Assembly: GCF_029643245.1 (NCBI RefSeq)
Contig: NZ_CP116398.1
Span: 1,674,001 to 1,738,000 of the forward strand
Direction: 5' to 3'
DNA length: 64,000 nucleotides
From: Methylomonas sp. EFPC3
GTDB taxonomy: Bacteria; Pseudomonadota; Gammaproteobacteria; Methylococcales; Methylomonadaceae
The position numbers and the translations under genes are program-made. The notes under the pieces were generated by a model that searched no databases, had not been told where the DNA came from, and saw only the letters and a program-made list of their open reading frames with translations. Position 1 is the first letter of the stretch; each line of letters starts with the position of its first letter. This document shows positions 4,002 through 42,160 of this stretch, one piece after another.

Positions 4002-4020
4002 AACTAGTAGTCTCGTCATT

Positions 4021-4827
4021 TTAAAAGACCGGTTCGTAACCGGCTGCGGCAGGAGTCCGCGCCATCGGCAGCAGGATATCGTCCTTGATATGCTCGTTGA
4101 CGATGTCCTGCAGCGCGCCCAGCACGGCGTCGCGGTTCTCCAGTAAAAAGAAGTGGCCGCCGCCGAACAGGCGCTGTTCGAAGCCGGCCGCGGTTTTGTC
4201 GCGCCAGGGCGCCATATCCTCGCCCGGCACCAGATGGTCGGCCATGCCGGTGAAGGCTGCAATTGGGAATTGCGCCGCCGGTTGCGGCACGTGGCTGTAA
4301 GTTTCGTGGATGCGAAAATCGGCGCGCAGCATCGGCAACAACAACTGCATGGTTTCCTCGTGTTGCAACACCTCGTCCGGGGTACCGCCGTAGCGTTGCA
4401 ATTCGACGATGAATTCGCTGTCGCTCAGCGTATGCAACACCCGGTTGCGGCTGCCAAGTTCCGGCGAACGGTAGCCGGAAACGATCAGTTGTTTCGGCGG
4501 CCGCACGCCGCGGCGCTCCAACTCCAGCGCCACCCGGTAAGCGATCAACGCCCCCATGCTGTGGCCGAACAGCAGATAGGGCCGGTCGATCCGCGCGATC
4601 AGCGCCGGCAGCAAGCCGGCGACCAACGCGTCCAGATCGCCGATGGCCGGTTCGGCGATGCGGCGTTCGCGGCCCGGCAGCTGCGCCGCCAGCACGTCTA
4701 CGTTATCCAGCGCGCCGGCCCAGCTGCGAAACACGTTGGCGCCGGCCCCGGAATACGGAAAGCAGACCAGCAGATACGGCGCGCGGCCGCCCAGATTAAA
4801 ATCGGTAAACCAATTGTCGGTAGTCAT
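4021..4827 (-). CDS. type II thioesterase (alpha/beta hydrolase) of the NRPS/PKS operon
   Basis: 268 aa. The type II thioesterase pattern is complete: an N-terminal CFPYSGAGA oxyanion segment, the nucleophile Ser in LFGHSMGA (about residue 95), an acidic residue in GMADHLVP and the catalytic His in GGGHFFL. These proteins hydrolyse wrong or stalled acyl groups from carrier-protein phosphopantetheine arms and so keep assembly lines running. Because the last NRPS module ends in a reductase and not a thioesterase, this enzyme is a proofreader and not the release enzyme. The gene lies 24 bases after the DUF711 gene in the same operon. Confidence 0.93.
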   Translation of the reverse strand: MTTDNWFTDFNLGGRAPYLLVCFPYSGAGANVFRSWAGALDNVDVLAAQLPGRERRIAEPAIGDLDALVAGLLPALIARIDRPYLLFGHSMGALIAYRVALELERRGVRPPKQLIVSGYRSPELGSRNRVLHTLSDSEFIVELQRYGGTPDEVLQHEETMQLLLPMLRADFRIHETYSHVPQPAAQFPIAAFTGMADHLVPGEDMAPWRDKTAAGFEQRLFGGGHFFLLENRDAVLGALQDIVNEHIKDDILLPMARTPAAAGYEPVF

Positions 4828-6141: not shown

Positions 6142-6338
6142 AGCGTTCTCAAGCTCAACGGCCGGATGTCGGGCCAATGTTGATTGACGTAGTCCAGACA
6201 GTTTTCCCGGCTGTCGGCCGGTTTGACCTGCTCCCAACCGGCGGGCACCGGCTTGAAAGCCGGCCATAAGGCGTGTTGCTGTTCGTGGTTGCAGACCACG
6301 ACGAAACCCGTTTCCAATTCTTCAGCCATAGCGACCAT
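6138..6338 (-). CDS. MbtH-like protein (adenylation domain chaperone)
   Basis: 66 aa (or 63 from the second ATG at 6329, which sits at better distance from the GGAG upstream). It carries the MbtH signature: NHEQQHALWPAFKPVPAGW followed by SRENCLDYVNQHWPDIRPLSL, with the conserved tryptophans. MbtH proteins bind and activate or solubilise NRPS adenylation domains. The gene lies between the terminal NRPS gene and the DUF711 gene, with an ATGA overlap to the latter. At least one adenylation domain of this line is therefore probably MbtH-dependent; which one cannot be told from sequence. Confidence 0.96.
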   Translation of the reverse strand: MVAMAEELETGFVVVCNHEQQHALWPAFKPVPAGWEQVKPADSRENCLDYVNQHWPDIRPLSLRTL

Positions 6339-6384: not shown

Positions 6385-9300
6385 CTAAAACCAGCCGCGG
6401 CGTTTGAAGGCTACTTCGCGGCCTGCGCTAACGAACAAGCGCTCGATGTAGCGTTGCCAGGCCGCGCGATCGATCTGCGGCGCCGGCAGATCCAGTTCGG
6501 CCAGCCGGCGCAGGGTTTTCGCCTGGCCGATCTGCAGACGGCCCTTGTCCGGCGCGCCGCGGTCGGTATCCCAATAAAACAGGTAGGGCGCGAACGGCAG
6601 CGGGGTTTCGGTCGAAGCCTGCTTGACCCGGTCTACCCAATGGTCGGCGCGGATGCGTTTCAGGCCGACGCTGCCGGCCACGTGCTGGGACAGCAATTTG
6701 CTCCAGTCGTAGCTTTCTTCGCCCATCAGATGGAATATTTCGCCGCCGCCGGTCTGTCCGGCCAAGGCGATAATCGCCCGCGCCGCGTAATCCACCGCAA
6801 TCGCCTTTTCGACCAGCGGATAGTCCGGATAGACCCCGAGCTGGATGCAGGTGCGCAAATACAAGCCGATGAAATCGTCGTCGCGGCCGGCACCGCTGCG
6901 GCTGTCCACCGCCACCCGGCCCAGACGGAAAATCTGGATCGGCAGGCCCATCCGTCCGGCTTGCCTGACTGCCGCTTCCGCCACCCATTTGCTGGCGTTG
7001 TAGCCTTCCAGATCGGTAAAACCTTCGCCGGCCAGATCGGTGTCTTCGTCCACTTTCCGCCCCGAGATTTCGGTGTTGAACACGCCGCCGGTTGAGACGT
7101 AGGCAAATCGTTTCAAGCGGTTATAAGCAGCCAATTCCAGCAGGGCCTTGGTTGAACCGACGTTGGCCGCGGCCAGTTGGCCGTAGCGCAACACGTGGTT
7201 CAGATGCGAGCCGTTATGCAGAATCAAGTCGATTTCCGAGGCCAGGTAATCGCGCACCTCGCCGCTCAAGCCGAGGTTGGGCTTGGCCAAATCGCCGACC
7301 ACCACTTTGATCCGTGGCATATAGCCGTCCCACCAAAGGCCGTATTCCTCCAGATTGGCCCGAATCCGACGCAAACCGTCTTCGGCCGAACCGGCCCGGA
7401 CCAGACAGTGCACCGTGGTCCCCGGCCAGCGTTCCAGCATTTGTTCCAGCAAATAAGCGCCGACGAAACCGGTGGCACCGGTCAGCAACACGTTTTGCAT
7501 CCTGCCGCTGGCCGGCGGCAATGGCGTCGGCAGCGCGATGGCGGATTCGGCTTTCAAATCCACCGGCCGCGGCGGCAGCAGGATTGCGGTGTCTTCCGCA
7601 TCGGCTTGGGTTTCCGCGCCGGCCGCATCCAGATAGGCCGCCATGCTGCGCACGGTCGGCGCCACGAAAAAGTCTTTCAGCGGCATCGAGTGCCCGCATT
7701 CTTCCCGCACCTGCGCCATCAACCGGGTCGCGCTCAGCGAATGGCCGCCCAGTTCGAAAAAGTCGTCGCTGACGCCGACCGTGTCGACGCCGAGAATCTC
7801 CTGCCACAATTCGACCAGCCAGCGTTCGCGCTCGGTTGCGGCCGGTTCGCAAACCCGGCTCGCCGTGTCGGCCGCGCCCGGTAACGGCAGCGCGCCGCGG
7901 TCGATCTTGGCGTTGGGCGTCATCGGCCAGGCAGCCAATACCATTACCGCCATCGGCACCATGAAATGCGGCAAGCTTTCCCGCAGCCTTGCCATCAGCT
8001 CCACGGCCAAACCGTCGGCGCCGGCTTCGCACAGCACGTAGCCGACCAATTGCCGGTTGCCGGCATCGATGTCGCGCACCAACACCAGCGCGTCGCGCAC
8101 CCGCTCGTGTTCCATCAGTCGGGCTTCGATTTCGCCCAGCTCGATACGGAAACCGCGGATTTTGATCTGGTTGTCGATCCGGCCCAGGAATTCGATGGTG
8201 CCGTCCGCCAGCCAGCGCACCAGGTCGCCGGTGCGGTACAAGCGCTCGCCGCTTTCGGGCCGGAACGGATGGGCGATGAATTTTTCGCCGTTCAATTCGG
8301 GCCGGTTCAGATAGCCGCGGCAGACACCGCCGCCGCCGATACACAATTCGCCCGGCACGCCGAGCGGCACCGGCCGCAGTTTGCCGTCGAGGATGAACAA
8401 TTCGGTGTTGGCCAGGGCGTGGCCCAAAGTCAATTTGGCGTCGCCCGGCCGGTAATCGGCCGCCATGCAAATCACCGTGGTTTCGGTGGGACCGTAAGCG
8501 TTGAAAAAACGCCGGTTCGGGCTCCAGGCTTCGGCCAGCGCCTGCTGGTAGCCTTCGCCGCCGACCAGCAAATGGTCGAGGCAGGCCAGTTTCGCCGGGT
8601 CGAGATAAGCCAATAACGACGGCGGCAACAGCGCGTGGCTGGTCGTCGCGGTAGCGACAAAGTCGGCCAGCCGATCCGGACTTTTGATCACGTCGTCGGC
8701 GGCCATGCACAGGCAACCGCCGTTGGCCAAGGCCACCGCCCATTCCCAGACCGAGGCGTCGAAACTGAACGAGGCGAACTGCAACATGCGGCTGCCGCCG
8801 CGAAAATCGAAGCGATTCGCCAACGCCACGCTGACCAGCGCCAGGTTGCGGTGTTCGATCAAGGTCCCTTTCGGCCGACCGGTCGAGCCGGAGGTATAGA
8901 TCACGTATGCCAACTGCTCCGGCAGCATGCCGGCGACCTGCGGTTCTTCGACCGATTCGCGGACGATCGCTTCCCTCAGGTATTCGCCGTCCAGCGCCAG
9001 CAAACGGATACCGGCCGGTAGCGGGATGCGTTCGGCGATATGGCTGTGGGCGATCAACCAGCGGCAATCGGCATCCTCCAGCATGAATTGCTGCCGGTCC
9101 GCCGGATAGTTCGGGTCCAGCGGCACATAGGCCGCGCCGGATTTCAACACCGCCAGAATCGCCACGATCCAGTCCGGGCTGCGCTCCAGACACAAACCCA
9201 CCCGCAATTCGCTGCCGACGCCCAGCCGGATCAGGAAATGAGCCAATCGATTGGCGCGCCGATTCAACTCGGCATAACTGATAGCGCTATCTTGGAACAG

Positions 9301-12300
9301 GACTGCCGGAGCTTCCGGCCGGTCGCTCACCTGCTGCATGAACATCTGTGGAAACAGGCGACCGTCCAAATCCAGGTTTGGCCCTTTACCCAAAGCCAAC
9401 ATCTCGGCGGCACCAGCGCCATCCAACAAATCGTAATCGGCCAGCGCCCGGTCCGGATCGGCCACCAGTTGCGGCAACAACACCGCGAACGATTGCGCCA
9501 GCCGCTCTACGGTTTCCGGGCGGAACAGCGCGCGGCTGAATTCCCATTGCCCGCTCAGGCCGTCCTGCTCGTTGAACACCACATACAAATCCCAGCGCGC
9601 CACCCACTCGTCGCTATCGACTAGCGACATGTCCTCGTAAGCGTTACGCAACGCGAAACAGACCTGGAAGAACGGGTTGTAGGCCGCGCTGCGCGCCGGT
9701 TTCAATTCATCGACCAGCATTTCGAACGGCAGATCCTGATGTTCGTAGGCGGCCTGCGCCGTTTGTTTCGCCGCCGCTAGCAAATCGTTAAAGCTATGGC
9801 CGGCGTCGATCCGGGCCCGGATCGGCAAAGTGTTGACGAAAAAGCCGATCACCGGCTCGGTCTCTTCTAAATGGCGGTTGGCGATCGGGGTACCCAGCAC
9901 GAAATCGTCCTGGCCGGACCAGCGGTACAACAACAATTCGAAGGCCGCCATCAGCGCCATGAACAGCGTCGCTCCCTGTTTTTCCGCCAGCGCCTTCAAG
10001 CCCTGGGCCAGTTCCGGCGCGTAGCGGTCGCGGACCATACCGCCCTGCCAGGACAGTTGCGCCGGCCGCGGAAAATCGTAAGGCAGGCCGATGGTATGCA
10101 CCGCGCCGTCCAGCTCGCCGCGCCAGTAGGCCAGCTGGGTTTCGCGCAGCTCGCCAGTCAAAAGCTGGCGTTGCCACAACGCGTAATCGGCGTACTGCAG
10201 CGCCAGTTCCGGTAGATCCGGCTCCGTGCCAAGTTGGTAGGCGGCGTAGGCCTGGCGAAATTCGCGCACGAAAATATCGGTGGACCAGCCGTCGGTGACG
10301 ATGTGGTGCAAGGTCGCCAACAACACGGCATTTTCGGGATTCAACAACAGTCGGTAGCGTAGCGGCGGCGCGGCGGCCAAATCGAAGGTCGCCTGCGCTT
10401 CCGCCGTGGCCAGCTCGGCCATGCGCAGCTCGCGTTCCGGCTCCGCCAACGCCGACAGATCGTCGATGACCAGCGGCGGCACGAAATCGGGCAAAATCTG
10501 CTGGCGCGGTTCGCCGCCGACGGCCGGGAAGCAGGTGCGCAGCGATTCGTGGCGGCGGGTCAGCCAGGCCAGTGCCCGGCGCACGGCTTCGACATCGGCC
10601 GGCGCGTCGAGAAACACCGCGTTGGGAACGTTATAGGCCGGATTGTCCGGCGCATATTCCTGCACGAACCAAAGCCGGCTCTGGGCGTAGGACAGCGGCA
10701 ACGGTTCGGGTCGTTCCTGCCGGACCAATGCCGGATAAGCCGGCGCGCCGCCCGCTTGCCGGTTGCGGATCAATGCAGCCTGCCCGGCGATGGTCGGCTG
10801 TTGAAACAGTTCGGACAGGCCCAGCTTGACCTCGAACAGCTTCGGAATCCTGGAGAACACCTGAGTGATCGTCAACGAATGGCCGCCCAAGGCAAAGAAA
10901 TTGTCGTTGACGCCGATGTCGTCGCGCCCCAGCACTTTCTGCCAGACGCCGAGCAAGGCCTCTTCCACCGCGTCGGCCGGCGCTTGCGCCAGCGCAGCCT
11001 GCAGCGCATCGCTTGCCTCCGGCGCCGGCAGCGCGGAACGGTCGGCCTTGCCGTTGGCGTTCAACGGAATCGCCGCCAACAGGACGAAGACGCTGGGCAC
11101 CATGTAATCCGGCAGGCGTTGCGCCAGATAAGCCCGCAACTCGGCGCGGAACTCGGCCGGCTCGGCGATAGCCGCCGCCGGCACCAGGTAACTGACCAGT
11201 TGTTGGCGGTCGCCGCCGCTGACCACGGTTACGGCGTCCTGCACCGCGGCGTGGCCGCGCAATACCGTATCGATTTCCTCCAGCTCGATCCGATAGCCGC
11301 GAACCTTGACTTGAAAATCCACCCGGCCTTTGACGACGATGCTGCCGTCCTCGCGGAAGTAGCCCAAGTCGCCGGTGCGGTACAGGCGTTCGCCGGCAAC
11401 TTCCGGCTGCGGATGCGGAATGAACTGGCTGGCGGTCAAGCCCGGATTGTTGAGATAGCCGACGCCGAGCGAAACGCCGCCTATCATCACCTCGCCGGCA
11501 ATGCCGGCCGGCAACGGATTGTTGAAGCGGTCCAATACCAGCATGCGCACGTTGGGCAGGTTTTTGCCGACCGTGACCGGCCACTCCGGATGCTCTAACT
11601 CTTCCCGGCTGAAGCGATGGGTGGTGCAAAGGTCGGTGCATTCGGTCGGGCCGTAGGTGTTGACCAATTCGCAGCGGCTGTGTGCCGACAACAGCCACGG
11701 CGCCAGCCTGGCCTTGTTTACCGGCTCGCCGCCCAGCAGCAAGTAGCGCAGCGAGGCCAAGTCGCGGTAATCGACGTCTTCGCCTTCGGCCAGCGCATAG
11801 CCCATGCTCGGCGTGCAGTTGATCCAGGTAATGCCCTGCTCGGCCACGCTGCGGCGTACGTAGTCCGGATCGAAATGATCGCCGACGGCCAGATGCAATT
11901 CGCCGCCGGTGAGCAAGGCGCCCCAGACGTTTTTCTGCGCCAGATCGAAGGTAATTTTATTGATCAACAGACATTTGTCGGCACTGCCGAAACCGAATTC
12001 GCGGTTCCACCACAAGATGAAGTTGATGAAACTGTCGTGGTAGACCCCGGCGGCTTTGGGCTTACCGGTGGAACCGGAGGTATGGATCACGTAGAACAGT
12101 CGTCGGGTATCGACAGCCACGGCCGGCGCGGTGTCCGGCTGGCTGCTCCAATTCGCCCACGTCCGGTCCAGATCGATAATCTGCAGCCCGTCCGCCGCGA
12201 GCGCGTCGCCGCGGCCATGGTGGCTGAGCAATTGGCTAAAGCTCAGGTCCTGCAACATACCGGCCAGCCGGGCGGCGGGCGCCTTCGGATCGAGCGGCGC

Positions 12301-13908
12301 GTAAGCATTGCCGGTTTTGACCACGGCCAGTATCGCAATAATCAGTTCCGCCGAAGGCTCCAGCAATAGCGCGATTTGGCCGCCGGCCGCGGCACCCTGC
12401 GCCAACAGAAAATGGGCCAGGCTATTGGCGCGCCGCTCCAGTTCGGCATAACTCAGGCGGACGTCGCCGACCGCCAACGCGGTCCGCTCCGGATGCAATA
12501 CCGCCCGCTCGGCGAACAACACCGCCAAGTCCCGCTCGCGCGGAAAATCGGTCGCGGTTGCGTTCCAGGCCGCCTGACGCAGGCGTTCGGCTTCCGCCAT
12601 CGCGCTGACCGTGGCCAGCGGCCGCTCGGCGTCCAGCAGCATCTGGTCCAGCACGGTTTGCCAGTGGTCCAGCAACCGTTCGACCACAGCCGGCGCATAG
12701 CGGCGCGGATCGAACATGGCGCGGATATTCATCTCGCCCGCCGGTTCGACCACCAGCGTCAATGGATAATTGGTCTTTTGCGCCACTGCGACGTCGGGCA
12801 ATTGCACCTGGCTGGACTGCGGAAACGATTCCACCGCCAGCATCGAATCGAACAACGGCAGCCCCGGTCCGATCGGGCTCCAGGCCTGAATCTCGACCAG
12901 CGGGCTATGTTCGTAGCTGCGCAAGGCCAGCAAGCCGTCCTGCAAATCGCGCAGCCAGGCCGCCACCGGCTGGGCGGCGCGGATGCGCACCCGCAACGGC
13001 AGCGTATTGATGAACAGGCCGACCATGTGCTGCGAGTTTTCCAGTTCCGGCGGCCGCCCGGACACGGTACAGCCGAACACGACGTCGTCCTCGCCGCTGT
13101 ACAAAGCCAGCAAGTAAGCGTACGCGCCCTGAATCACGCTATTCGGCGTCAAGCGCGCGGCGCGGGCGAATTCGCGCAAACGCTCCGCCCGCTCCTGGCC
13201 CAGCGCCCGACGGACCACGGCATAGTCGCAGTCCGGCTCGGCGCCGGGATTGCCCTCGACCAGGCCAAGCGGCGTCGGCGCAGCAAAGCCGGCCAGATAG
13301 CCGCGCCAGAAAGTCTCGGCCGCGGTCCGGTCCTGCTGCCCCAACCAACGCAAGTAATTTTTATACGGCGTACTGGCCGGCAGTTCAGGCTCGCGCCCGT
13401 CCGCCAATGCCATGTAAGCCTGAAGGGCCTGATCCAGCACGATAAACGCCGACCAGCCGTCGAGCAGGATGTGGTGGTAGGTCCACAGCAACACGCTCTG
13501 CTCCGCCCCGGTTCGAATCACCCGCAAGCGCAGCAACGGCGCCTTGGCCAAATCGAAGCCCGCTTTGGCGTCCGCAGCGCGCAGCGCTTGCAGGCCTTGC
13601 TCGCGTTCCGCCTCGGCCAGGTCAGACCAATCCAGGGCTTCGACCCGGATTTCGGCTTGGCGCTGCACCACCTGCACCGGCTTTTCCAGGCCTTCCCAAA
13701 AAAAGCCGCTACGCAGGATGTCGTGGTGGGCGATCACCCGGTTCCAGGCTTGTTGCCACAGGCCGGGGTCGACGCCGAACGGCACGGTTTGGCTGAACTG
13801 TTCGACGTACACCCCCGAGTCGGGGCTGCTCAGGGAATGGAACAGCATCCCTTCCTGAATCGGCGTCAGCTTGTAAATATCGGCGATGTTGGCGCGATCG
13901 ATGGTCAT
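6385..13908 (-). CDS. two-module NRPS with terminal thioester reductase: C-A-PCP-C-A-PCP-TD
   Basis: 2507 aa. Domains in order: C (about 12-440, HHILLDG at 145), A (455-960, A10 Lys954), PCP (980-1050, Ser1011), C (1068-1500, HHIVTDG at 1201), A (1520-2010, Lys2001), PCP (2025-2095, Ser2057) and a reductase domain (2138-2507) with the NADPH motif TGATGFVG and the Tyr2303/Lys2307 pair of short-chain reductases. By eye against GrsA, the pocket code of the first A domain is D-L-K-N-L-G-T-D-L (no substrate I can name with confidence). The second is D-A-W-L-L-G-A-V-I, which suggests a hydrophobic residue such as Leu. The reductase should release the chain as an aldehyde or, after a second reduction, an alcohol. 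This is the final elongation protein, 16 bases downstream of the PKS gene. Confidence 0.96.
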   Translation of the reverse strand: MTIDRANIADIYKLTPIQEGMLFHSLSSPDSGVYVEQFSQTVPFGVDPGLWQQAWNRVIAHHDILRSGFFWEGLEKPVQVVQRQAEIRVEALDWSDLAEAEREQGLQALRAADAKAGFDLAKAPLLRLRVIRTGAEQSVLLWTYHHILLDGWSAFIVLDQALQAYMALADGREPELPASTPYKNYLRWLGQQDRTAAETFWRGYLAGFAAPTPLGLVEGNPGAEPDCDYAVVRRALGQERAERLREFARAARLTPNSVIQGAYAYLLALYSGEDDVVFGCTVSGRPPELENSQHMVGLFINTLPLRVRIRAAQPVAAWLRDLQDGLLALRSYEHSPLVEIQAWSPIGPGLPLFDSMLAVESFPQSSQVQLPDVAVAQKTNYPLTLVVEPAGEMNIRAMFDPRRYAPAVVERLLDHWQTVLDQMLLDAERPLATVSAMAEAERLRQAAWNATATDFPRERDLAVLFAERAVLHPERTALAVGDVRLSYAELERRANSLAHFLLAQGAAAGGQIALLLEPSAELIIAILAVVKTGNAYAPLDPKAPAARLAGMLQDLSFSQLLSHHGRGDALAADGLQIIDLDRTWANWSSQPDTAPAVAVDTRRLFYVIHTSGSTGKPKAAGVYHDSFINFILWWNREFGFGSADKCLLINKITFDLAQKNVWGALLTGGELHLAVGDHFDPDYVRRSVAEQGITWINCTPSMGYALAEGEDVDYRDLASLRYLLLGGEPVNKARLAPWLLSAHSRCELVNTYGPTECTDLCTTHRFSREELEHPEWPVTVGKNLPNVRMLVLDRFNNPLPAGIAGEVMIGGVSLGVGYLNNPGLTASQFIPHPQPEVAGERLYRTGDLGYFREDGSIVVKGRVDFQVKVRGYRIELEEIDTVLRGHAAVQDAVTVVSGGDRQQLVSYLVPAAAIAEPAEFRAELRAYLAQRLPDYMVPSVFVLLAAIPLNANGKADRSALPAPEASDALQAALAQAPADAVEEALLGVWQKVLGRDDIGVNDNFFALGGHSLTITQVFSRIPKLFEVKLGLSELFQQPTIAGQAALIRNRQAGGAPAYPALVRQERPEPLPLSYAQSRLWFVQEYAPDNPAYNVPNAVFLDAPADVEAVRRALAWLTRRHESLRTCFPAVGGEPRQQILPDFVPPLVIDDLSALAEPERELRMAELATAEAQATFDLAAAPPLRYRLLLNPENAVLLATLHHIVTDGWSTDIFVREFRQAYAAYQLGTEPDLPELALQYADYALWQRQLLTGELRETQLAYWRGELDGAVHTIGLPYDFPRPAQLSWQGGMVRDRYAPELAQGLKALAEKQGATLFMALMAAFELLLYRWSGQDDFVLGTPIANRHLEETEPVIGFFVNTLPIRARIDAGHSFNDLLAAAKQTAQAAYEHQDLPFEMLVDELKPARSAAYNPFFQVCFALRNAYEDMSLVDSDEWVARWDLYVVFNEQDGLSGQWEFSRALFRPETVERLAQSFAVLLPQLVADPDRALADYDLLDGAGAAEMLALGKGPNLDLDGRLFPQMFMQQVSDRPEAPAVLFQDSAISYAELNRRANRLAHFLIRLGVGSELRVGLCLERSPDWIVAILAVLKSGAAYVPLDPNYPADRQQFMLEDADCRWLIAHSHIAERIPLPAGIRLLALDGEYLREAIVRESVEEPQVAGMLPEQLAYVIYTSGSTGRPKGTLIEHRNLALVSVALANRFDFRGGSRMLQFASFSFDASVWEWAVALANGGCLCMAADDVIKSPDRLADFVATATTSHALLPPSLLAYLDPAKLACLDHLLVGGEGYQQALAEAWSPNRRFFNAYGPTETTVICMAADYRPGDAKLTLGHALANTELFILDGKLRPVPLGVPGELCIGGGGVCRGYLNRPELNGEKFIAHPFRPESGERLYRTGDLVRWLADGTIEFLGRIDNQIKIRGFRIELGEIEARLMEHERVRDALVLVRDIDAGNRQLVGYVLCEAGADGLAVELMARLRESLPHFMVPMAVMVLAAWPMTPNAKIDRGALPLPGAADTASRVCEPAATERERWLVELWQEILGVDTVGVSDDFFELGGHSLSATRLMAQVREECGHSMPLKDFFVAPTVRSMAAYLDAAGAETQADAEDTAILLPPRPVDLKAESAIALPTPLPPASGRMQNVLLTGATGFVGAYLLEQMLERWPGTTVHCLVRAGSAEDGLRRIRANLEEYGLWWDGYMPRIKVVVGDLAKPNLGLSGEVRDYLASEIDLILHNGSHLNHVLRYGQLAAANVGSTKALLELAAYNRLKRFAYVSTGGVFNTEISGRKVDEDTDLAGEGFTDLEGYNASKWVAEAAVRQAGRMGLPIQIFRLGRVAVDSRSGAGRDDDFIGLYLRTCIQLGVYPDYPLVEKAIAVDYAARAIIALAGQTGGGEIFHLMGEESYDWSKLLSQHVAGSVGLKRIRADHWVDRVKQASTETPLPFAPYLFYWDTDRGAPDKGRLQIGQAKTLRRLAELDLPAPQIDRAAWQRYIERLFVSAGREVAFKRRGWF

Positions 13909-13923
13909 GGCTCTATCAACTCG

Positions 13924-20565: not shown

Positions 20566-20615
20566 GTGCTTTGCTTCCGTTGTCTATGTTTCGATGAAAT
20601 TGGCGGCAGGCGGGC

Positions 20616-24713: not shown

Positions 24714-24740
24714 CTCGTTGTCTCCAGTTAACCCGTTGGC

Positions 24741-27700: not shown

Positions 27701-30700
27701 TCAATGCAGCGCGCAACGAGTCGTGCCGGGCCACCACGCCGCGAAAGGCCTGCTCCAGTTTGTCCCGCTCCGGCGCTCCGGCCAGCTCGAACAGCACCAG
27801 TTCGTTGTACGCCGCCTGCACTTCCTCGCTCAATTCCAGATGCACCAGGATGTCCTGCTGCGCGCCATTCAGCGGCAACGCGGCCGGCGCCTGCGGCAGC
27901 CGCGCCGTGATAACCGCCTGATAACCGGCATGGACTTCGGCTGCGGCTTCGATGAAGCCGGCGCGTTGCAATAACTCAGTCCAGGCGGCGGCCGGCAGCA
28001 ACGGATAATCGGCGCGTAACGTGCTGTCCTGAAACGCCCACCAGCCGTCGGTCAGGCCGAAGATCAAGTCCAGCCAGGGCTGGCGGCCGACGCATTCCAG
28101 CAACAGCAGGCGACCGTTCGGCGCCAGCAGGCTGCGCAGATGGTTCAGGGTTTTGCCCAGATCAGCGGTCGCGTGCAGCACGTTGGAGGCCACGATCAAA
28201 TCGAAACTTTGCCGGACAAAACCCTGCTCGGCCGGGTCGCGTTCGATATCCAGGGTGGCGTATTCGACCTGTGGGTAGGCGGCGAATTCGCGCTCGGCGC
28301 GGTGTAAAAAGGCGCTGGACAGATCGGTAAACAGATAGCGCAAATCACGGCGGCTCAGGCCGGGCAACAATTGCGCGGTGGCCGAACCGGTGCCGGCGCC
28401 GACTTCCAATACCGCGGCTTTGCCGGAAACGTCGGCGACGGCGGCGGCGGCCGCCGCCGCCCGCGCCAGAGCCGCATTGGCCGCGGCAGCGCCGGGGGCG
28501 TGGCGGTAAAGCCGTTGCAGCAAGGCGTAGTTTTCGCCGCCGAACAGCACTTCCGCCGCATCACTGCGGCCGCACAGCACGGCCGGCAACGCGGCGGCGC
28601 AATGCAGCAATAAGTCGACTGCGGCGGCGTCGGCCGAACTGCGCGCCTCGCGTTCCAGATCCGCGGTCGCCACCGGCAGCGATTGCAGCAACTCCCAGTC
28701 TTCGCCGACGGCGCGCAGCCAGCCGGCTTCGTTCAACATCGCAAACATACGGCCGAACAGGCGGCGGCGCTTGGGTGCCACGCCGATGGCGCCAGCGGCG
28801 CGTTCGACCTTGCAAATGCCGCCGATGTGCGCCGGCAAGGCTTGCAATTCTTGTAAGGCCTGAGCCGCCAACGCGGTCGCCAGCGCATTCAATGCCTGGG
28901 CGCCGGCTTCGCTGCCGGCCGCGTCGCGGCTGGCCGGCAATGGCGATCCGGCCGGCGGCGGGAAGAAGCCGCCTTGGCGCAGCGCCTGCGCCGATTCGCG
29001 CCCGGCGCGGACGATAAAGTCGACGTCGGCGTCGCTATGGGCGCTGCTGAGGAAGCAGGTGTGGCCTTCCCAGATATACACGCCGCGCAGCGTCATGTGG
29101 TAGAAAAACAGATTGGCTTCGATGGGCTGGAATTCGACGCTGTAATTGTCGAAAAACACGAAGCGGAACAAGGAGCCGGCGTGGTTGACCCGAATCGCGA
29201 AACCCTCGGCGGCGAAATAGTCGTTCAATTCCTGCACCAGCCGCGCAGTCTTGGCGGTGATGCCGGCTTGCAAGGCCGGGCCGGCATCGCGCAACTGGCG
29301 CAGTACCGCAACGGCGGCGGCCATGGTCAGCGGATGGCCGCTGAAGGTGCCGGCAAAGAAAGTCGCGGTGGCCGCCGGATAAGAGTCGTCGTCGAATTGC
29401 CAGGGGCCGCCGTCGATCGCGTTCATGAAGCGGGCGTTGCCGGCGACGATGCCGATCGGCATGCCGCCGCCGGCCACCTTGCCGTAAGTCACCAAGTCGG
29501 CGCGGACGCCGAAATATTCCTGGGCGCCGCCCGGCGCCAAACGAAAACCGGTGATGATTTCGTCGAATATCAACGCGCAACCGGCGGCGCTGGCGATTTC
29601 CCGCAAGCGCTGCAGAAACTCGCGCGGTTGCAGGCCGGGCCGGCGGCTTTGCACCGGCTCGACCACGATGGCCGCCAGTTCGCCGGCATGGCGCTGGATC
29701 GTTGCCAGCGCGGCCTCGTCGCCGTAGGCCAGCACGATGGCGTCCTGCGCCACCGAAAGCGGCACACCGGGCGCGATCGGCAAACCGCTGCCACCCTCGC
29801 CGCCGGCCTTGACCAGCATGGTATCGGAATGGCCGTGGTAAGAGCCGGCAAAGCGGACGATGCGGGTGCGGCCGCTGACGGCACGAGCCAGCCGCACCGC
29901 GGTCATCACCGCTTCGGTGCCGGAATTGGCGAAAGCCACCCGTTCGCAGCCGGTCAGATCGCGCACCAACTGCGCCGCCTCGCCGACCAGAGGGCTTTTA
30001 GGTCCGACCTGGATGCCGTCCGCCAGCTGGGCGGCCAAGGCTTGCTTGACCAACTCCGGGTTGTAGCCGAGCAGGCTGGAACCGAAGGCCATGGTCAGAT
30101 CGACGAATTCGTTGCCGTCCAGGTCGTAAATCCGGGAACCGGCCGCGGTTTTGACCACCAGCGGGAAGATCATCGCTTTGGTCGCTTGGCGGAAGCCGAG
30201 CGAACTGCGGTAATCGGCGAACACCTCGCGGTAGGTTTCGGCATAACGTTTCGAGCCGGCGTGCTTGGCCTGGTAGGCGGCGGCCAGTTCGCGCAGATGT
30301 TGTTGTTGCGCCGGGTTCAAGCCGGCCGCCGCGGCATTACCGGTGGCCGGCAACGGCGTTGCCGGGCGCAAAGCCGGAGCCGCTGCCGGCGCCGGACTGG
30401 GGCTGGATGCCGGCACCGCGGGTGCCGGTTGCGACGGCGAAGAGACGCCGCCGCGCAACAAGCCAAGTTGGTCTTGCACCAGCCGGTTGAACGCATCCAG
30501 TTGCCGCTCCAGCAAACCGTGCCAGTCGCCTGGGGCTGCGGCGCCGGGTGCGGCAGACGGTAACGGCGCCTGTTCCGATTCGGCCGCCGCCGGTAATGCC
30601 GCTACGGCGGCCGGCTCGGCGTCGAGTGTCGGGCTGGCGGCGGCAATCGCCGGCGCCAGCGTGTCGATGCTGGACAGCTCGGCAAACAAGCGCGCCATCC

Positions 30701-33700
30701 CGATGTCGACCGCATAACGTTCGCTAACCAGGCGCAACAGTTCGGTCAACACCAGCGAGTCGGCGCCCAATTCCAGGAAACTGCGCCGGTTGTCCAATTC
30801 GTCGGCCGGGCGTTTCAGCAACAGGCCGAGCTGTCGTTGCAACCAGCTAGCGACCTCTACAATGGCAGCGGCCGACTCTGCCTCGGCACCGGCCGGCAAA
30901 GTAGCGCCCTGCTCCGCCAGCCAGGCGGCCAGCGCCTGCAGGCTGCGCAAGTCTTCGAATAAACTGTGAATCGCAACTTGCACGCCGAAACGGCCCTGCA
31001 CCTGACGCAGAAACTCCACCAGCACCAGCGAGTCGGCGCCCAGTTCCAGGAACGAGCGGTTGGGGTCGATGTCATCGGTTGCGCATTTCAGCAACGGGGC
31101 TAGTAAACGGGCAAGTTCGCCGGTCGTGGTGGTGGCGGTCGCGGTCGTCATGGGTGTCCTGGTGGTAGGTTGGAGCCAAAAACGGCTGGGTTGAAACGGA
31201 TAGCCGGGCAAATCGAGCTGGTCGAAGGTTTCGCCGGCCCAAGCGGCGCCGAAATCGACTCGGTAACCGGCGCGCCACAACTCGGCCAGGGCCGAATTCA
31301 GCGCCAGCCAGTCGGGGCGCTGCGCATCCAGGCTGGAGACGACGGCCGGGGCCGGGTCGAAGCGGCGCAGCATTGCAGCCAATGCCGGTTGCGCGCCGAT
31401 CTCCAAAAACGTTCCGGCGCCTAACGCCTCGGCGGCGGCGATGCATTCTCTAAAGCGTACCGGTTGGCGCAGATGTTCGACCCAATAGTCGGCGTCGAAG
31501 CGCGCTACCGGCGCCGCGTGCAGGTTGCCGATCACCGGCAGCCGCGGCGCTTGCCACGCCACCTGATTGGCGACGGCGCGGAATTCTTCGAGTATCGGTT
31601 CCATGTCGGCGCTATGAAAAGCGCGCTTGACCTTCAACGGCAGCACGGCGATACCCGCAGCCTTGGCACGTTCGGTCAGCGCTTCCAGCGCCGGCAGCGG
31701 ACCGGAGACCGTGACCTGGGCCGGGCCGTTGTCGGCTGCCAGCGCCAGCCCCGGATCGGCGGCGATCAGTTCCAGAGCGGCGGCCTTGTCGGTCAGCATC
31801 GCCAGCATGCCGCCGCGGTCGGAACAGCGCTGCATCAGTTGCGCGCGCAACACCACCAGGCGCAAGGCATCGGCCAGCGACATCGCCCCGGCAAAGCAGG
31901 CGGCGACGTATTCGCCCAGACTGTGGCCGACCGCGACGGCCGGAGCCAGGCCGCAGCTTTCGAAATAGCGCGCCAGCGCATAGCCGACCACGAACAACGC
32001 CGGTTGCGCGGTCGCGGTTTCGGCCAGATGGTCGCTATCCAGCGCGTCCGGGCCGTACAACAACGGCGCCACCGGCGCCATTCCGGCGCCGCTCAATAAC
32101 AGATCGCATTGGTCGACCGTGGCCCGGAACACCGGCGCATGCGCGTACAATCCGCGGGCCATGCCGGCATATTGGCTGCCCTGACCGGTAAACAGGAGGG
32201 CCAGCGGTTTCGGCGTGCCGACGACAGCCGCCGGCCCAGCCTGACCGCTTTGCGCCAGCCGGGCCAGGCCGGCCAGCAATTCGCCGCTGTCGGCGGCATG
32301 CAACACGCTGCGGTAAGGCAAGCCGCTGCGGCCGCGGTTGGCCTGATAACACAGGCTGGCCCAGCGCTCGGCGCCGGCTGGCAGAAAATCCAGGTATACC
32401 GCAGCCAATGCCGCCAAATCGGCCGGCCGCTCTGCGGACAACAACAAGGCGTAATGCGAACGCTGCGGCCGATTCACGGCGGCAACGGCCGGTTCCGCCC
32501 GGCGCAGCACGACGTGGGCGTTGCTGCCACCAAAGCCCATCGACGTCACGCCGATGTGGCGCAACGGCTGTTCTGCAGCGAAACGGCGCAGTTCGGTATT
32601 GACCGCCAGCGCCTTGGCATCGAAGCGGATGTGCGGATTCAGCGCACTGAATCCGGCCAGCGGCGGTACGGCATTGTGTTGCAGGCACAACACGGCCTTG
32701 ATCAGGCCGGCAATACCGGCCGCGGCCTCGAGATGGCCGATGTTGGCCTTGACCGAACCGATCAGGCAGGGCCGCTCGCGGCCGGCCCCGACCACCTCGG
32801 CCAGGGCACCGGCTTCGATCGGATCACCCAACGCGGTGCCAGTACCGTGCGCTTCCAGATAATCGACCGTATTCGGCTCCAGTTTGGCAGCGGCATAGGC
32901 CCGGCGTAACAAGGCGCGTTGAGCGACGCCGTTCGGCGCGGTCAGGCCGAAGCTGTGGCCGTCCTGGTTGATCGCGCTGCCAGCGATGTACGCCAGCACC
33001 CGATTGCCGCGCCCGGCCGCCAGCGTTTCCCGGCGCAACACCACCAGCCCGACGCCTTCGCCGCGCACGTAACCGTCGGCTGCGGCGTCGAAACTATGGC
33101 AGGCGGCCGTCACCGACAGCATGCCGGCCTTGCCCAGGGCGCGAGTCAAGGCCGGATTCAGCATCAAATTGACGCCGCCGACCAGAGCGGTGTCGCACTC
33201 GCCGGCCAGCAGGCTTTGGCAGGCCAGGTGCACCGCCACCAACGACGAGGAACAGGCCGTATCTACTGCTAAGCTGGGGCCACGCAAGTCCAGAAAATAA
33301 GAAAGCCGGTTGGCGGCGATACTGGCGGCGGTACCGGTGCCGGCGTGGCCGTCCAAACTGCTGTCGCTGCGCCAGGCCAATTGCCCGTACTCCGAACCGC
33401 TGATGCCGATGAACACGCCGGTAGCGGAGCCGGCCAATTCCTCGCGGGAAATGCCGGCCTGTTCCAGCGCGGTCCAGGCCGCGGTCAGTAGCAAGCGCTG
33501 CTGCGGATCGAGTATCTCCGCCTCTTTCGGCGAAATATGGAACGGCGCCGGATCGAACAGGTCGATGCCGTCCAGCCAGCCGGCGGCGCCGAGCGCGTCG
33601 ACATCGTCCACCAAGCCGGCCAGCAAGGCCTTGCGCTCGGCGGGCAGCGGTCGCACCGCGCTGGTGCCGGCGCTCAGTAAATCCCAGAACGCCGCGGTGT

Positions 33701-35909
33701 CGTCCGCCCCCGGAAAGCGGCAGGCCATGCCGACGATCGCGATGTCGGCACTTGCTTCGGCGGCGGATTCGCTGGCGAGCGTCTCGGCTTCGCCGCGGCA
33801 CAAATACTCAACGACCCGGTCGATGCTGGGATAGTCGAACAATAAATTGGCCGGCAAGCGGCCGTAGCCGAAGGCTTTTTCCAGTTCGTCGGTCAGGCGC
33901 ACGGATAAATTGGAATCCAGACCAAATTCGCCGAACGCGGCATCGCAACCGATTTCGGCCGGCTCCAGACCGGACACTTCAGCTACCCGCTGCCGCAACC
34001 AGGCGCGCACCGCCTCGGCGTCGGGCCGGGTTGCGGCGGCGCCGGATTCGGTTGGCGCCAGTTGCCGTTCCAGATTGCGATTGATCCATTGCGCCAACGG
34101 CTGCAGACTCTGTTGCAAAAAGCCGCGCTTGGTTGCCGCGCGCTGGATTTTGCCGCTGGTGGTTTTCGGGATAGCACTTTCCCGCAACAGCGCGATGGCG
34201 GCGGTTTGCAGCTCGTGGCCGTCGGCCACCGCCTTGCGGATCGCCGCGAACAATTCCTGCGCATGCTGCTCGGCCTTGAAACGGCGCGAGGTTTCGGCGA
34301 CCACCACCAGGCGTTCCTCGCCGTCGGCGCTGACGGTGAAGGCCGCGGCGCCGCCCATCTTTAATAACGGGTGGGCCTTGTCCACCGTCCATTCGATATC
34401 CTGCGGATAATGGTTTTGGCCGCGGACGATGATGACGTCCTTCAAGCGGCCGGTGATATAAAGTTGATCGGCGTATAAAAAGCCCAGGTCGCCGGTGCGC
34501 ATCCAGCGCCGGCCGGAATCGTCGCCGGCCACACAGGCGTGAAAGGTGGCCTGGGTCTGCTCGGGATTTTGCCAATAACCCGGCGATACCGCACCGTTGC
34601 GGACCCAGACTTCGCCGACCCGATCGGCCGGGCATGGCGCCAGGGTATCGGGGTCGACGATCAGCAATTCGGTATCGGCAATCGGGTAGCCGCTACCGGC
34701 CAGCGACAATGCCGACGGCTCGTCGGCGCTGGCGAATACCAGCCGGTTGCGTTGCAATTCGGCGGCGCGGACCCAGACTTCTTCCGCCGCCGGCCGCTGC
34801 TGCCGGTGCTGGCCGCTACCGGCGTAGTGCAGACCGGTAACGATACAAGCCGCTTCGGCCAATCCCCAACTGGGACTGAACACGCGGAAATCGAAGCCCG
34901 CCGCGGCGAAGCGTTCGGCGAAGGCGCGCATGGTCTGCATCCTGACCGGCTCGGCGCCGTTCAGCGCGTGTTGCCAGCGGCTCAGGTCCAGCCCGGCCAA
35001 TTGCTCGTCGCCGACGCCGTGCAGGCACAGGTCGAAGGCGAAGTTCGGCCCCATGGTATGGGTGATGCCGAAGCGGCTGATCGCTTCCAGCCAGCGCGCC
35101 GGCCGTTGCACGAAGGCGGCGTTGGGCAGGATGTAACAGGCCATGCCGCAATAGACCGGCGTCAGCAGGCCGTAAATCAGGCCCAGATCGTGAAACGGCG
35201 GCAGCCAGGTCAACAATCGGGACTCGGCGCTGTGGACCCCACTGCGGTCGAAGTACTGCATGTTGCACATCAGGTTGGCGTGGGTCAGGATCACGCCCTT
35301 CGGCAACGAGGTCGAACCCGAGGTGTATTGCAGGAAGGCGATATCGTCGGCTGCGACGTCCGGTTTACGCCAGCCGTCAGCCAGCCCGGCATCCAGGGTA
35401 TCGGTCGCCAGCCAGCGCATCGCCGCAAATTCGGGCAGGCTGCCGAAATGTTCTTCCGCTTTTTCCTTGACCGCCTGCGTCGTCAACACTGCCACCGGTT
35501 GCGCCGAACGGGCAATTTCCAGGACTTTTTCCAGGGTTTGCAGCATGCGCGATTGGCGCGGCGGCGGTAACGGGATCGCGATGTGCTTGGCGTACAAGCA
35601 ACCGAAATAAGAGGTAATGAATTCGATACCCGGCAAATACAACAGCATGACCCGCTCGCCCTCGGCGGCGATGCCTTGCAAAGCCGCGGCCACGGTTTTC
35701 GCCTTCAAGGCCACGTCTCGAAACGACAGCGTTTCCGCCAGGTCTTCGCCGTCGCGCAGGTAGTGATAGATCGGAAAATCGGGTTGGATTTCGGCACGGT
35801 GTTCCAGCAAACCCAATAAATCGGCAACCGGCGCCGCTGCGGCGGAATCGGCATTTTTTTGCTCGGCTCCGAGCACGGATGCAATTGAATCGCTAGTCAC
35901 GGGTTTCAC
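24741..35909 (-). CDS. starter and first-elongation megasynthase: FAAL-ACP-KS-AT-ACP-ACP-AMT-MT-C-A-PCP
   Basis: 3722 aa. Domains: fatty acyl-AMP ligase (30-600, YTSGSTSLPKG near 195), ACP (632-706, Ser666), KS (720-1145, Cys886, His1021, His1059), malonyl-type AT (1236-1540, Ser1330, AFH near 1432), tandem ACPs (Ser1627, Ser1718), class III PLP aminotransferase (1870-2315, Lys2144 in TYGKVAGGG), SAM methyltransferase (2430-2665, LEVGAGTGS at 2501), C (2678-3100, HHMIIDG at 2809), A (3120-3610, pocket D-L-Y-N-N-A-L-T-Y, Ala/Gly-like) and PCP (Ser3658). The layout is that of mycosubtilin-type MycA: a fatty acid is activated, extended by malonate and beta-aminated, then joined to the first amino acid. 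The annotated start is GTG; a second GTG at 35900 sits at a better distance from an AAGAG. First gene of the operon. Confidence 0.96.
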   Translation of the reverse strand: MKPVTSDSIASVLGAEQKNADSAAAAPVADLLGLLEHRAEIQPDFPIYHYLRDGEDLAETLSFRDVALKAKTVAAALQGIAAEGERVMLLYLPGIEFITSYFGCLYAKHIAIPLPPPRQSRMLQTLEKVLEIARSAQPVAVLTTQAVKEKAEEHFGSLPEFAAMRWLATDTLDAGLADGWRKPDVAADDIAFLQYTSGSTSLPKGVILTHANLMCNMQYFDRSGVHSAESRLLTWLPPFHDLGLIYGLLTPVYCGMACYILPNAAFVQRPARWLEAISRFGITHTMGPNFAFDLCLHGVGDEQLAGLDLSRWQHALNGAEPVRMQTMRAFAERFAAAGFDFRVFSPSWGLAEAACIVTGLHYAGSGQHRQQRPAAEEVWVRAAELQRNRLVFASADEPSALSLAGSGYPIADTELLIVDPDTLAPCPADRVGEVWVRNGAVSPGYWQNPEQTQATFHACVAGDDSGRRWMRTGDLGFLYADQLYITGRLKDVIIVRGQNHYPQDIEWTVDKAHPLLKMGGAAAFTVSADGEERLVVVAETSRRFKAEQHAQELFAAIRKAVADGHELQTAAIALLRESAIPKTTSGKIQRAATKRGFLQQSLQPLAQWINRNLERQLAPTESGAAATRPDAEAVRAWLRQRVAEVSGLEPAEIGCDAAFGEFGLDSNLSVRLTDELEKAFGYGRLPANLLFDYPSIDRVVEYLCRGEAETLASESAAEASADIAIVGMACRFPGADDTAAFWDLLSAGTSAVRPLPAERKALLAGLVDDVDALGAAGWLDGIDLFDPAPFHISPKEAEILDPQQRLLLTAAWTALEQAGISREELAGSATGVFIGISGSEYGQLAWRSDSSLDGHAGTGTAASIAANRLSYFLDLRGPSLAVDTACSSSLVAVHLACQSLLAGECDTALVGGVNLMLNPALTRALGKAGMLSVTAACHSFDAAADGYVRGEGVGLVVLRRETLAAGRGNRVLAYIAGSAINQDGHSFGLTAPNGVAQRALLRRAYAAAKLEPNTVDYLEAHGTGTALGDPIEAGALAEVVGAGRERPCLIGSVKANIGHLEAAAGIAGLIKAVLCLQHNAVPPLAGFSALNPHIRFDAKALAVNTELRRFAAEQPLRHIGVTSMGFGGSNAHVVLRRAEPAVAAVNRPQRSHYALLLSAERPADLAALAAVYLDFLPAGAERWASLCYQANRGRSGLPYRSVLHAADSGELLAGLARLAQSGQAGPAAVVGTPKPLALLFTGQGSQYAGMARGLYAHAPVFRATVDQCDLLLSGAGMAPVAPLLYGPDALDSDHLAETATAQPALFVVGYALARYFESCGLAPAVAVGHSLGEYVAACFAGAMSLADALRLVVLRAQLMQRCSDRGGMLAMLTDKAAALELIAADPGLALAADNGPAQVTVSGPLPALEALTERAKAAGIAVLPLKVKRAFHSADMEPILEEFRAVANQVAWQAPRLPVIGNLHAAPVARFDADYWVEHLRQPVRFRECIAAAEALGAGTFLEIGAQPALAAMLRRFDPAPAVVSSLDAQRPDWLALNSALAELWRAGYRVDFGAAWAGETFDQLDLPGYPFQPSRFWLQPTTRTPMTTATATTTTGELARLLAPLLKCATDDIDPNRSFLELGADSLVLVEFLRQVQGRFGVQVAIHSLFEDLRSLQALAAWLAEQGATLPAGAEAESAAAIVEVASWLQRQLGLLLKRPADELDNRRSFLELGADSLVLTELLRLVSERYAVDIGMARLFAELSSIDTLAPAIAAASPTLDAEPAAVAALPAAAESEQAPLPSAAPGAAAPGDWHGLLERQLDAFNRLVQDQLGLLRGGVSSPSQPAPAVPASSPSPAPAAAPALRPATPLPATGNAAAAGLNPAQQQHLRELAAAYQAKHAGSKRYAETYREVFADYRSSLGFRQATKAMIFPLVVKTAAGSRIYDLDGNEFVDLTMAFGSSLLGYNPELVKQALAAQLADGIQVGPKSPLVGEAAQLVRDLTGCERVAFANSGTEAVMTAVRLARAVSGRTRIVRFAGSYHGHSDTMLVKAGGEGGSGLPIAPGVPLSVAQDAIVLAYGDEAALATIQRHAGELAAIVVEPVQSRRPGLQPREFLQRLREIASAAGCALIFDEIITGFRLAPGGAQEYFGVRADLVTYGKVAGGGMPIGIVAGNARFMNAIDGGPWQFDDDSYPAATATFFAGTFSGHPLTMAAAVAVLRQLRDAGPALQAGITAKTARLVQELNDYFAAEGFAIRVNHAGSLFRFVFFDNYSVEFQPIEANLFFYHMTLRGVYIWEGHTCFLSSAHSDADVDFIVRAGRESAQALRQGGFFPPPAGSPLPASRDAAGSEAGAQALNALATALAAQALQELQALPAHIGGICKVERAAGAIGVAPKRRRLFGRMFAMLNEAGWLRAVGEDWELLQSLPVATADLEREARSSADAAAVDLLLHCAAALPAVLCGRSDAAEVLFGGENYALLQRLYRHAPGAAAANAALARAAAAAAAVADVSGKAAVLEVGAGTGSATAQLLPGLSRRDLRYLFTDLSSAFLHRAEREFAAYPQVEYATLDIERDPAEQGFVRQSFDLIVASNVLHATADLGKTLNHLRSLLAPNGRLLLLECVGRQPWLDLIFGLTDGWWAFQDSTLRADYPLLPAAAWTELLQRAGFIEAAAEVHAGYQAVITARLPQAPAALPLNGAQQDILVHLELSEEVQAAYNELVLFELAGAPERDKLEQAFRGVVARHDSLRAALSEDRSQVVIGQEPDTTLVEADFSDLPDALAEAKAREWVLARSAEPFDLTRPPLIKAFLARLGDDRYWLLFLAHHMIIDGISYGLLIQEIVEFYRHLSDGSALALPRPVTLAEANRRVAAQRPQDREFWLQQFGQGVPALDLPTDYPRPPEQRFAAQRTCLVLDAEVAAQLKALTQRCNATPFMVMLAVYRLLLNRLSGQQRSVIGVPVSMHGDRPGESFIGFGVNVLPIVGNSDSQATFADYLQQAKHVFLQAFEHRGFPFAELVRAVNPERDPSRPALVSAVFNYEAVGALAGGGLRFTPLVPPSAHTKYELTLDVVADASQTVLVLTYNTALFAADTAERLLARYAKLLAQLAAAPDTRLGSIDLLLDEEREGLGMNPPIAYDNRCLHHLCADQAKRTPERIALRWHDTELSYRELDAQANRLAHLLQQHGVGVEDRVAVCLARGPQLVVALLAVLKAGACYVPVDPNYPAERRAVILRCAEAKLLLADTADAAISAAANAAPLLSPADPRLASCPDTAPASAVRPEHLAYIIFTSGSTGLPKGVAIEHRNAASMIDWAAQEFALPAGAGMLASTSVCFDLSVYEIFYPLAHGGKVVMVDNILHLPELARQDDIAVINTVPSAMEEILRQRAVPASVRTINLAGEALPLALVQGIQQHYPDVAVYNLYGPSEDTTYSTFVRFPERFQGPVTIGRPIAGSQLYLLDPDLNPVPAGGKGEIYLAGNGLCRGYFGNQAGTAAAFLPDPFSATPGARMYRTGDLGRLNPDGMVEYLGRSDFQVKIRGHRIELGEIETVLAQVPGVQRAVVIADGEPGRQRLLAFYSAETELGDALKQTAAAKLPAFMVPGVCTRVTEFPLSPNGKIDRRQLAQLAHGQEPTEAGPGGQLPRNALESEIAAIWAEHLQLDSIHIGDDFFALGGHSLLATQILYEINRRHGCRLRLTDIMKHPTVAELAEAVLERALQDSPDLQALLAELVRDGAELAAS

Positions 35910-42005: not shown

Positions 42006-42072
42006 GCGGGTTTAAGACGGTATCTACCGGGCTGCCGTATAGGTATTGGGTTTTTCTCTGCTCATTTTGGAT

Positions 42073-42104
42073 CACAATTTTTTTCGGATATTTTAAAAAT
42101 TGTG
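42073..42104 (+). terminator. AT-rich stem-loop after the IS110 transposase
   Basis: CACAATTTTT and AAAAATTGTG form a perfect 10-bp stem with a 12-base loop, 68 bases after the transposase stop. No U tract follows the 3' arm, so it may be a terminator or part of an element end. Confidence 0.35.
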
Positions 42105-42160
42105 TCCGGTTTAGTGTAGCCCCATCAATATCCAAAACCGTTGTGGATGACTTGAACCGG

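Follow-up and report, generated by a model that had tools for sequence, protein, structure and literature searches.

Four neighbouring genes encode a hybrid NRPS-PKS assembly line that, on balance, we believe to be working and to make a lipopeptide with a beta-aminated fatty-acyl starter, a thiazole, an alkene and a reductively released end. The pathway is real and conserved, and it is probably active. At the junction between its PKS module and the last synthetase lies a tail that is related to epimerization (E) domains and could record the exchange of a whole module.

Four synthetases in one collinear line

We analysed a window of 64,000 nucleotides (positions 1674001-1738000 of a 4.44 Mb single-contig genome) in which four minus-strand open reading frames, of 3722, 1365, 2213 and 2507 residues, follow each other with gaps of 27, 50 and 15 bp, as in what may be one transcription unit (Table 1). 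Their domains read FAAL-ACP-KS-AT-ACP-ACP-AMT-MT-C-A-PCP / Cy-A(Ox)-PCP / KS-AT-KR-DH-ACP-X / C-A-PCP-C-A-PCP-TD, where X is the tail of synthetase 3. Pfam recovers every named domain class except this tail, and since even the weakest of them, the nitroreductase-family oxidase, scores E 2.6e-10, chance is ruled out for the domain set. The translations also contain motifs that we take to be catalytic: TACSS/TACST in KS, GHSLGEY in AT, DxxxxDxxS in Cy, HHxxxDG in C, HxxxGxxxxP in DH, YxxxN in KR and YxxxK in TD. Gene and domain order are conserved in genome G147 (window 12-36056, 86.6% DNA identity) and in G011, listed under the same species as the window genome (window 1-39984, 96.8%); the contig of a fourth genome, G141, covers window 14673-30380 only.

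The open reading frames, the Pfam domains and the order kept in G147 and G011 thus bear out an earlier note on this DNA, which had read the four proteins as a collinear assembly line. Its domain order stands, with two labels revised: "MT" now has a kind, C-methyltransferase, and "(C-like)" becomes a degenerate E domain. The note had the four synthetases right and missed the accessory genes on the left side of the cluster.

Table 1. Features of the cluster (window positions; domain limits of synthetase 1 are approximate)
Feature	Position	Strand	Basis or remark
Synthetase 1 (P0001)	24741-35909	-	Pfam, solved relatives, A code
FAAL	34095-35822	-	
ACP	33780-34022	-	
KS	32460-33746	-	
AT	31350-32207	-	
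Two ACPs	30630-31127	-	
AMT	28980-30242	-	
C-methyltransferase	27930-28829	-	
C	26580-27887	-	
A	25080-26537	-	DLYNNALTYK
PCP	24840-25037	-	
Synthetase 2 (P0002)	20616-24713	-	Pfam, solved relatives, A code
Cy	23244-24566	-	DVLIFDALS
A	21834-23216	-	DLYNMSLIWK, Cys
Oxidase, nitroreductase-type	21144-21761	-	Inserted in A domain ahead of NGK motif
PCP	20709-20921	-	
Synthetase 3 (P0003)	13924-20565	-	Pfam; profile comparison for tail
KS	19216-20553	-	
AT	17986-18948	-	
KR	16471-17808	-	
DH	15526-16413	-	
ACP	15091-15303	-	
Degenerate E domain (probably non-catalytic)	13927-15060	-	PKS-module end; residues 1836-2213
Synthetase 4 (P0004)	6385-13908	-	Pfam, TIGR01746, MxaA match, tree, codes
C, module 1	12574-13881	-	After-E group
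A, module 1	11014-12531	-	DLKNLGTDLK, homoserine-like
PCP, module 1	10774-10956	-	
C, module 2	9394-10707	-	
A, module 2	7879-9351	-	DAWLLGAVIK, Leu-like
PCP, module 2	7624-7827	-	
Thioester reductase (TD)	6439-7506	-	TIGR01746, MxaA
DUF711 protein	4852-6267	-	PF05167; one weak solved relative, 2ha9
Type II thioesterase (editing)	4021-4827	-	PF00975
ABC transporter ATPase	3291-4262	-	PF00005; start uncertain
FtsX/MacB-type permease, probable exporter	2050-3291	-	Domain match
LolA-like outer-membrane lipoprotein-sorting protein	1308-2075	-	PF17131; kept in G147 and G011
Possible outer-membrane barrel protein	12-1301	-	By eye: signal-like N-terminus, ends YYFD
Phosphopantetheinyl transferase (PPTase)	L061:11195-12001		From window base 1 leftward; cluster-linked

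A predicted fatty-acyl starter with a beta-amine

Synthetase 1 unites in one protein the parts of a MycA-type starter, namely FAAL with ACP, then KS-AT, then a class III aminotransferase. These parts support both the fatty-acyl starter with a beta-amine and the likeness to mycosubtilin-type starters that had been proposed earlier. The FAAL identity comes from solved relatives; Pfam shows an AMP-binding domain only.

The plain beta-amino C2 extension proposed at the same time is incomplete, as it overlooked a probable alpha-C-methyl group. The MT, which lies between the AMT and the C domain, has CurJ as its closest solved relative (209.6 bits), followed by DisA, a putative methyltransferase and the lovastatin and citrinin synthases. 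It aligns with CurJ and keeps the NVLHAT motif with its His position, a motif that presumably has a catalytic role in the CurJ C-methyltransferase. Given this kinship to polyketide C-methyltransferases, a 3-amino-2-methyl acyl unit is probable. The position of the MT downstream of the AMT leaves the timing of methylation unproved, and this same position, ahead of the C domain, could fit an enzyme that N-methylates the beta-amine rather than the carbon; weak matches lower in the solved-structure listing do include N- and O-methyltransferases. However, all of the five top solved relatives but one, which is named as a putative methyltransferase, are C-methyltransferases, and the CurJ-type kinship makes N-methylation very unlikely in our judgement. 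The A domain that follows has a code that we tentatively read as Ala/Gly-like and that found no match in the open-access literature searched.

A thiazole module followed by an alkene-forming module

Synthetase 2 contains everything expected of a thiazole module: a Cy domain with DxxxxDxxS, a Cys-type A code and a flavin oxidase. An excerpt of PMC12283262 places DLYNMSLIWK among the Cys codes with oxidase. The code, together with Cy and Ox, supports the thiazole from Cys that the earlier note had read here. The likeness to epothilone-type modules holds as well (EpoB Cy, 356 bits), the closest solved relative being the bacillamide NRPS BmdB (779 bits).

The KS-AT-KR-DH set of synthetase 3 supports a C2 alkene. 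LDD and Trp are the fingerprints by which KR domains are sorted, and this KR has neither, so the geometry of the alkene is not readable from it.

A probable relic of an epimerization domain at the PKS-NRPS junction

The tail of synthetase 3 had been labelled C-like. Even with E allowed up to 10, searches of Pfam, NCBIfam and PDB with the tail by itself gave nothing. We therefore compared profiles by hhalign, with a query built from the window copy and two orthologues. The tail matched Methylomonas E domains with Prob 92.8 and E 3.9e-7 (8 E rows) and, with 12 E rows, Prob 95.7 and E 9.6e-9 over 193 columns of its second half. We rejected an ordinary C domain: C-domain profiles gave Prob 0.2 and 0.7 only, against 0.8 and 0.5 for an AT control.

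As for specificity, we also compared 23 other tiles from the four proteins, six of which exceeded Prob 80 with the E profile. Five of them contain all or the beginning of a C or Cy domain and score better with the C profile. In the sixth (synthetase 3 residues 1521-1898), residues 281-367 of the tile match the start of the E profile; this stretch joins the end of the ACP to the initial 52 residues of the relic, which means that an E domain also fits the relic at its front, with the carrier adding to the score. In fact, intact C and Cy tiles reach E-profile scores of 115-135, above the 69 of the relic, which is distinctive by matching E and not C.

A joint alignment places E-type motifs near the end of the relic (FTWLGHY vs FNYLGQ; FTAADF vs TPSDF). 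HHxxxDG is missing from the window copy and the two orthologues, as is the EGHGR stretch of E domains from the joint alignment. HHxxxDG and the Glu of EGHGR are catalytic in E domains, and their loss argues for a relic rather than a working enzyme: the tail is probably a degenerate, non-catalytic epimerization domain. Its dN/dS (0.26 and 0.28) is the highest among the catalytic-type domains and close to that of linkers, one of which also has 0.28, yet it is below 1; in the G011 comparison, two carriers that have hardly any synonymous changes, ACP1 (0.65) and the PCP of P0002 (0.32), lie above it. A domain that is still active and has taken on a new task with the enoyl chain would explain why the relic is retained in the window genome, G011 and G147 at a dN/dS far below 1, but the missing motifs and the fastest evolution of any catalytic-type domain make this highly improbable. 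As a non-catalytic domain, the relic is possibly a docking partner for the C domain of the next protein.

Among 301 genomes of the order (E<=0.001), the relic is found in the four cluster genomes only, and in G141 it is broken by the contig end. A plasmid search with P0003 gave 585 records, all below 60% identity, the best 6 of 585 stopping at residue 1815, before the relic. A MAFFT alignment of the relic with the C and Cy domains of the window was discarded for its poor quality (16-21% identity), and single-sequence structure prediction reached a mean pLDDT of 39.8, for which reason we dropped a fold search.

The next C domain is the first of synthetase 4. In a tree of 31 domain rows from few genomes, it falls in a 13-row group (support 100/99) that contains all ten C domains following an E domain and two of the 12 other C domains from relatives (Fisher p 1e-4, the rows not being independent). 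One of these two opens a frame about 1 kb downstream of a frame ending in an E domain. The other, G094_m2_3907 (genome G094, loci L047-L048), is a C domain of the after-E group with no preceding E found by motif search.

An after-E-type C domain beside an E relic is consistent with an old E/C pair that persisted when the module ahead of it was exchanged. We envision, as an evenly balanced proposal, that the C-A-PCP of an NRPS C-A-PCP-E module was replaced by KS-AT-KR-DH-ACP, with the swap junction near the carrier/E border, and that the orphan E was kept as a catalysis-free adapter to the C domain of the next protein. If so, the enoyl chain that the after-E C domain of synthetase 4 receives would be achiral, and nature would already have tested this junction as a place to cut when PKS and NRPS parts are combined, which suggests a splice point for engineering. 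NRPS/PKS module exchange is mostly inferred from trees; here it is testable at a single junction.

Predicted substrates of synthetase 4 and reductive release

We read the A codes from aligned A domains, using the canonical Cys code of A2 to fix the columns; for A4, the two final positions lie in an alignment gap and were read separately. The nine-position codes DLYNNALTY, DLYNMSLIW, DLKNLGTDL and DAWLLGAVI, each followed by the invariant Lys of the NGK/NAK motif, are identical in the window, G147 and G011. The third residue had been called unknown in the earlier note. Its place in the line stands and its code is now homoserine-like: passages of PMC12283262 give DLKNVGSDVK and DLKNLGTDVK for homoserine or homoserine lactone, and a part of PMC7524897 gives DLKNFGSDVK for homoserine in laxaphycin-type synthesis. 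A3 is identical to DLKNLGTDVK at 9/10 positions and differs at position 331. The last residue remains Leu-like, A4 sharing 7/10 positions with the common Leu code DAWFLGNVVK; DAWLLGAVIK itself had no match in the open-access literature searched.

The TD scores above the curated cut-off for thioester reductases (TIGR01746, 272 bits vs 213, in a curated family search run without P0002) and its YxxxK is intact, which upholds a reductive end. The emphasis on an aldehyde fares less well. Of 13 solved sequences, the best is MxaA (217 bits over 371 residues), followed by a type I PKS reductase (168), NRP (98) and CAR (94), down to the AusA reductase (52). The MxaA reductase forms alcohols and the AusA reductase aldehydes. 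With the TD nearest to MxaA, the chances of an alcohol are no lower than those of an aldehyde, the kinship not being decisive. Both outcomes are open to R domains in general, with a two-electron reduction giving the aldehyde and a four-electron reduction the alcohol, according to a section of PMC12783407.

The release step also bears on what the product could be. Peptide aldehydes inhibit proteases, and the earlier note had favoured a linear lipopeptide aldehyde with a protease target. The intact YxxxK of the TD agrees with this, as does the release of peptide aldehydes by R domains in antipain-like clusters. Nevertheless, the far better match to MxaA than to AusA, the free beta-amine that would tend to trap an aldehyde in the same molecule, and the lack of any peptidase family match (E<=0.001) among the cluster proteins scanned make it doubtful; the inhibitor idea is a guess drawn from the TD and nothing else. 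Macrocyclisation after reductive release, by reaction of the aldehyde with the beta-amine to a koranimine-like cyclic imine, is an outcome to which we give a minor but real chance. The AMT leaves the amine free, the TD passes through an aldehyde and the koranimine ring closes spontaneously after reductive release (in the relevant part of PMC9640594), but an MxaA-like TD may go on to the alcohol, and a thiazole together with an alkene, if trans, may strain the ring.

Accessory genes and cluster borders

We searched the accessory genes in 37 Methylomonas genomes (the synthetase in 21 of the 37 and the relic in at least 24). Three of them occur in four of the 37, which are the four known holders of the synthetases: the DUF711 protein (E<=0.001), the FtsX permease (E<=1e-40) and the barrel-like protein (E<=1e-20), the last with no match in Pfam or PDB. 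The DUF711 protein is divergent (91.6 bits, where its NCBI family has a cut-off of 440), and among 143 genomes of the class (E<=1e-20) one besides its own has it; it may serve in biosynthesis or self-protection. Close copies of the type II thioesterase (86-100%) are found in the four cluster genomes and distant ones (29-39%) in five others of the 37. The linked PPTase has a copy at 70-100% in the four, and some PPTase match is present in 36/37. The ABC ATPase gene probably starts near 4019, given a frame of 242 aa in G147.

Synteny with G147 stops about at the PPTase. At the opposite end, we rejected an amino-acid permease (36543-37934) as a cluster gene, as it has matches in 32/37 genomes. 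With the PPTase and synthetase 1 as its ends, the cluster is therefore about 36.7 kb long.

Beyond it, about 9.5 kb (window 39985-49475) are missing from G011, where the flanks are joined with 2 bases between them, and GC is about 0.50 over window 42-50 kb. The segment codes for an IS110-type transposase, OEP, DUF2975, a MacB-like permease, an ABC ATPase, HlyD and an rve integrase; by its gene content it is an efflux-system island, with insertion elements close to either end. On the minus strand at 53367-57729, a C39-peptidase ABC exporter and its HlyD partner lie near small ORFs with double-glycine-like leaders (57225-57506, ...LEQVSGG; 57538-57729, ...AQVAGG), possibly a microcin/bacteriocin locus.

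Distribution and selection

A scan of the collection for the AMT-MT pattern gave 37 matches at 4 distinct loci. The same protein is found in Methylomonas koyamae SM2 (97%) and Methylomonas sp. SURF-1 (98%), and two further loci match at 40%, to the MT only. End to end, the 801-residue AMT-MT stretch matches in 4/201 genomes of the family (G000, G011, G141 and G147); the other family matches, among the matches listed, cover one domain each, with both in separate frames in some genomes. In a phylum sample of 398 genomes, 15 match at E<=1e-120, with the full stretch only in the window's own, the other 14 stopping at residues 441-540, mainly AMT. Thus, this kind of AMT is widespread, and its combination with a closely related MT is found in the four genomes only, though a diverged version of the same order could occur elsewhere. 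In genomes G110 and G126 (L017, L018, L031-L034), other large frames carry an AMT that is 52% identical, with a C-MT at 44-45% in a nearby frame; from these domains, the loci are probably further beta-amino-acyl lipopeptide clusters.

The synthetases are under purifying selection. Full-length dN/dS is 0.094-0.127 against G011 and 0.131-0.162 against G147, and against G141 it is 0.106 for P0002 (full length), 0.110 for partial P0001 and 0.071 for partial P0003; we dropped the G141 row for P0004 (0.81), which had been paired with a different synthetase of that contig. A silent or decaying cluster is scarcely credible, with its long frames intact, dN/dS far below 1 and the cluster kept in four genomes.

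Predicted pathway and comparison with known systems

To explain these results, we propose the following pathway. The FAAL would activate a fatty acid to acyl-AMP and load the first ACP with it, and the KS-AT of synthetase 1 would add malonyl. The resulting beta-keto chain would be methylated at its alpha carbon by the C-methyltransferase and have its keto group converted to an amine by the AMT, giving the 3-amino-2-methyl-acyl unit. C-A-PCP would add the Ala/Gly-like residue; Cy-A-Ox would add Cys, cyclise it and oxidise it to the thiazole, which KS-AT-KR-DH would extend to a thiazolyl-acryloyl chain. The relic would no longer epimerise, since this substrate has no such centre, and would dock synthetase 3 to the next protein. 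Synthetase 4 would add homoserine and then the Leu-like residue, and the TD, with NADPH, would reduce the thioester off as an alcohol (leucinol) or an aldehyde, the latter being able to close on the beta-amine to the cyclic imine. Export could proceed through the linked ABC, FtsX, LolA-like and barrel-like proteins. Outside the cell, our likeliest guess is a diffusible antagonistic or surfactant lipopeptide.

We found no description of such a cluster or product in the open-access literature searched, in agreement with the earlier statement that no described product has the whole set. To our knowledge, few such products are known from methanotrophs. A concrete lipopeptide is thus predicted from a culturable methane oxidiser, and the prediction indicates a mass to look for. 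Methanotroph clusters are treated in general in parts of PMC11964084 and PMC11392852.

Several known systems resemble parts of this line. As in MycA/ItuA of mycosubtilin and iturin, a single protein would activate the fatty acid, elongate it, aminate it at the beta position and add the first residue; a passage of PMC4219810 describes these MycA activities, from fatty acid activation to the first residue, within one protein. Synthetase 1 differs by the extra C-methyltransferase after the AMT, and the line by its other peptide and its terminal reductase. Iturins are closed onto the amine by a terminal thioesterase, whereas here the terminal domain is the TD and the sole thioesterase is a separate type II protein; the starter is therefore MycA-like but the pathway is not the iturin pathway. 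PuwE of puwainaphycin also has a modifying domain beside the AMT between PKS and NRPS modules, with the alpha carbon as presumed target. There it is a monooxygenase (2-hydroxy), and a C-methyltransferase in its place fits the predicted 2-methyl group. EpoB and BmdB, reportedly with an oxidase in their modules, share the Cy-A with Cys code and flavin oxidase, but here KS-AT-KR-DH comes next, giving the predicted thiazolyl-acryloyl unit ahead of homoserine. MxaA of myxalamid has the closest solved TD and differs in the chain that is reduced. Koranimine reportedly lacks the beta-amino fatty acid and the thiazole. It is a heptapeptide from NRPS genes whose synthetase resembles ours in aldehyde release and in a cluster with type II thioesterase and PPTase (both from sections of PMC9640594). 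Each chemistry of the line is thus known from one system or another; the combination and the E relic set this line apart.
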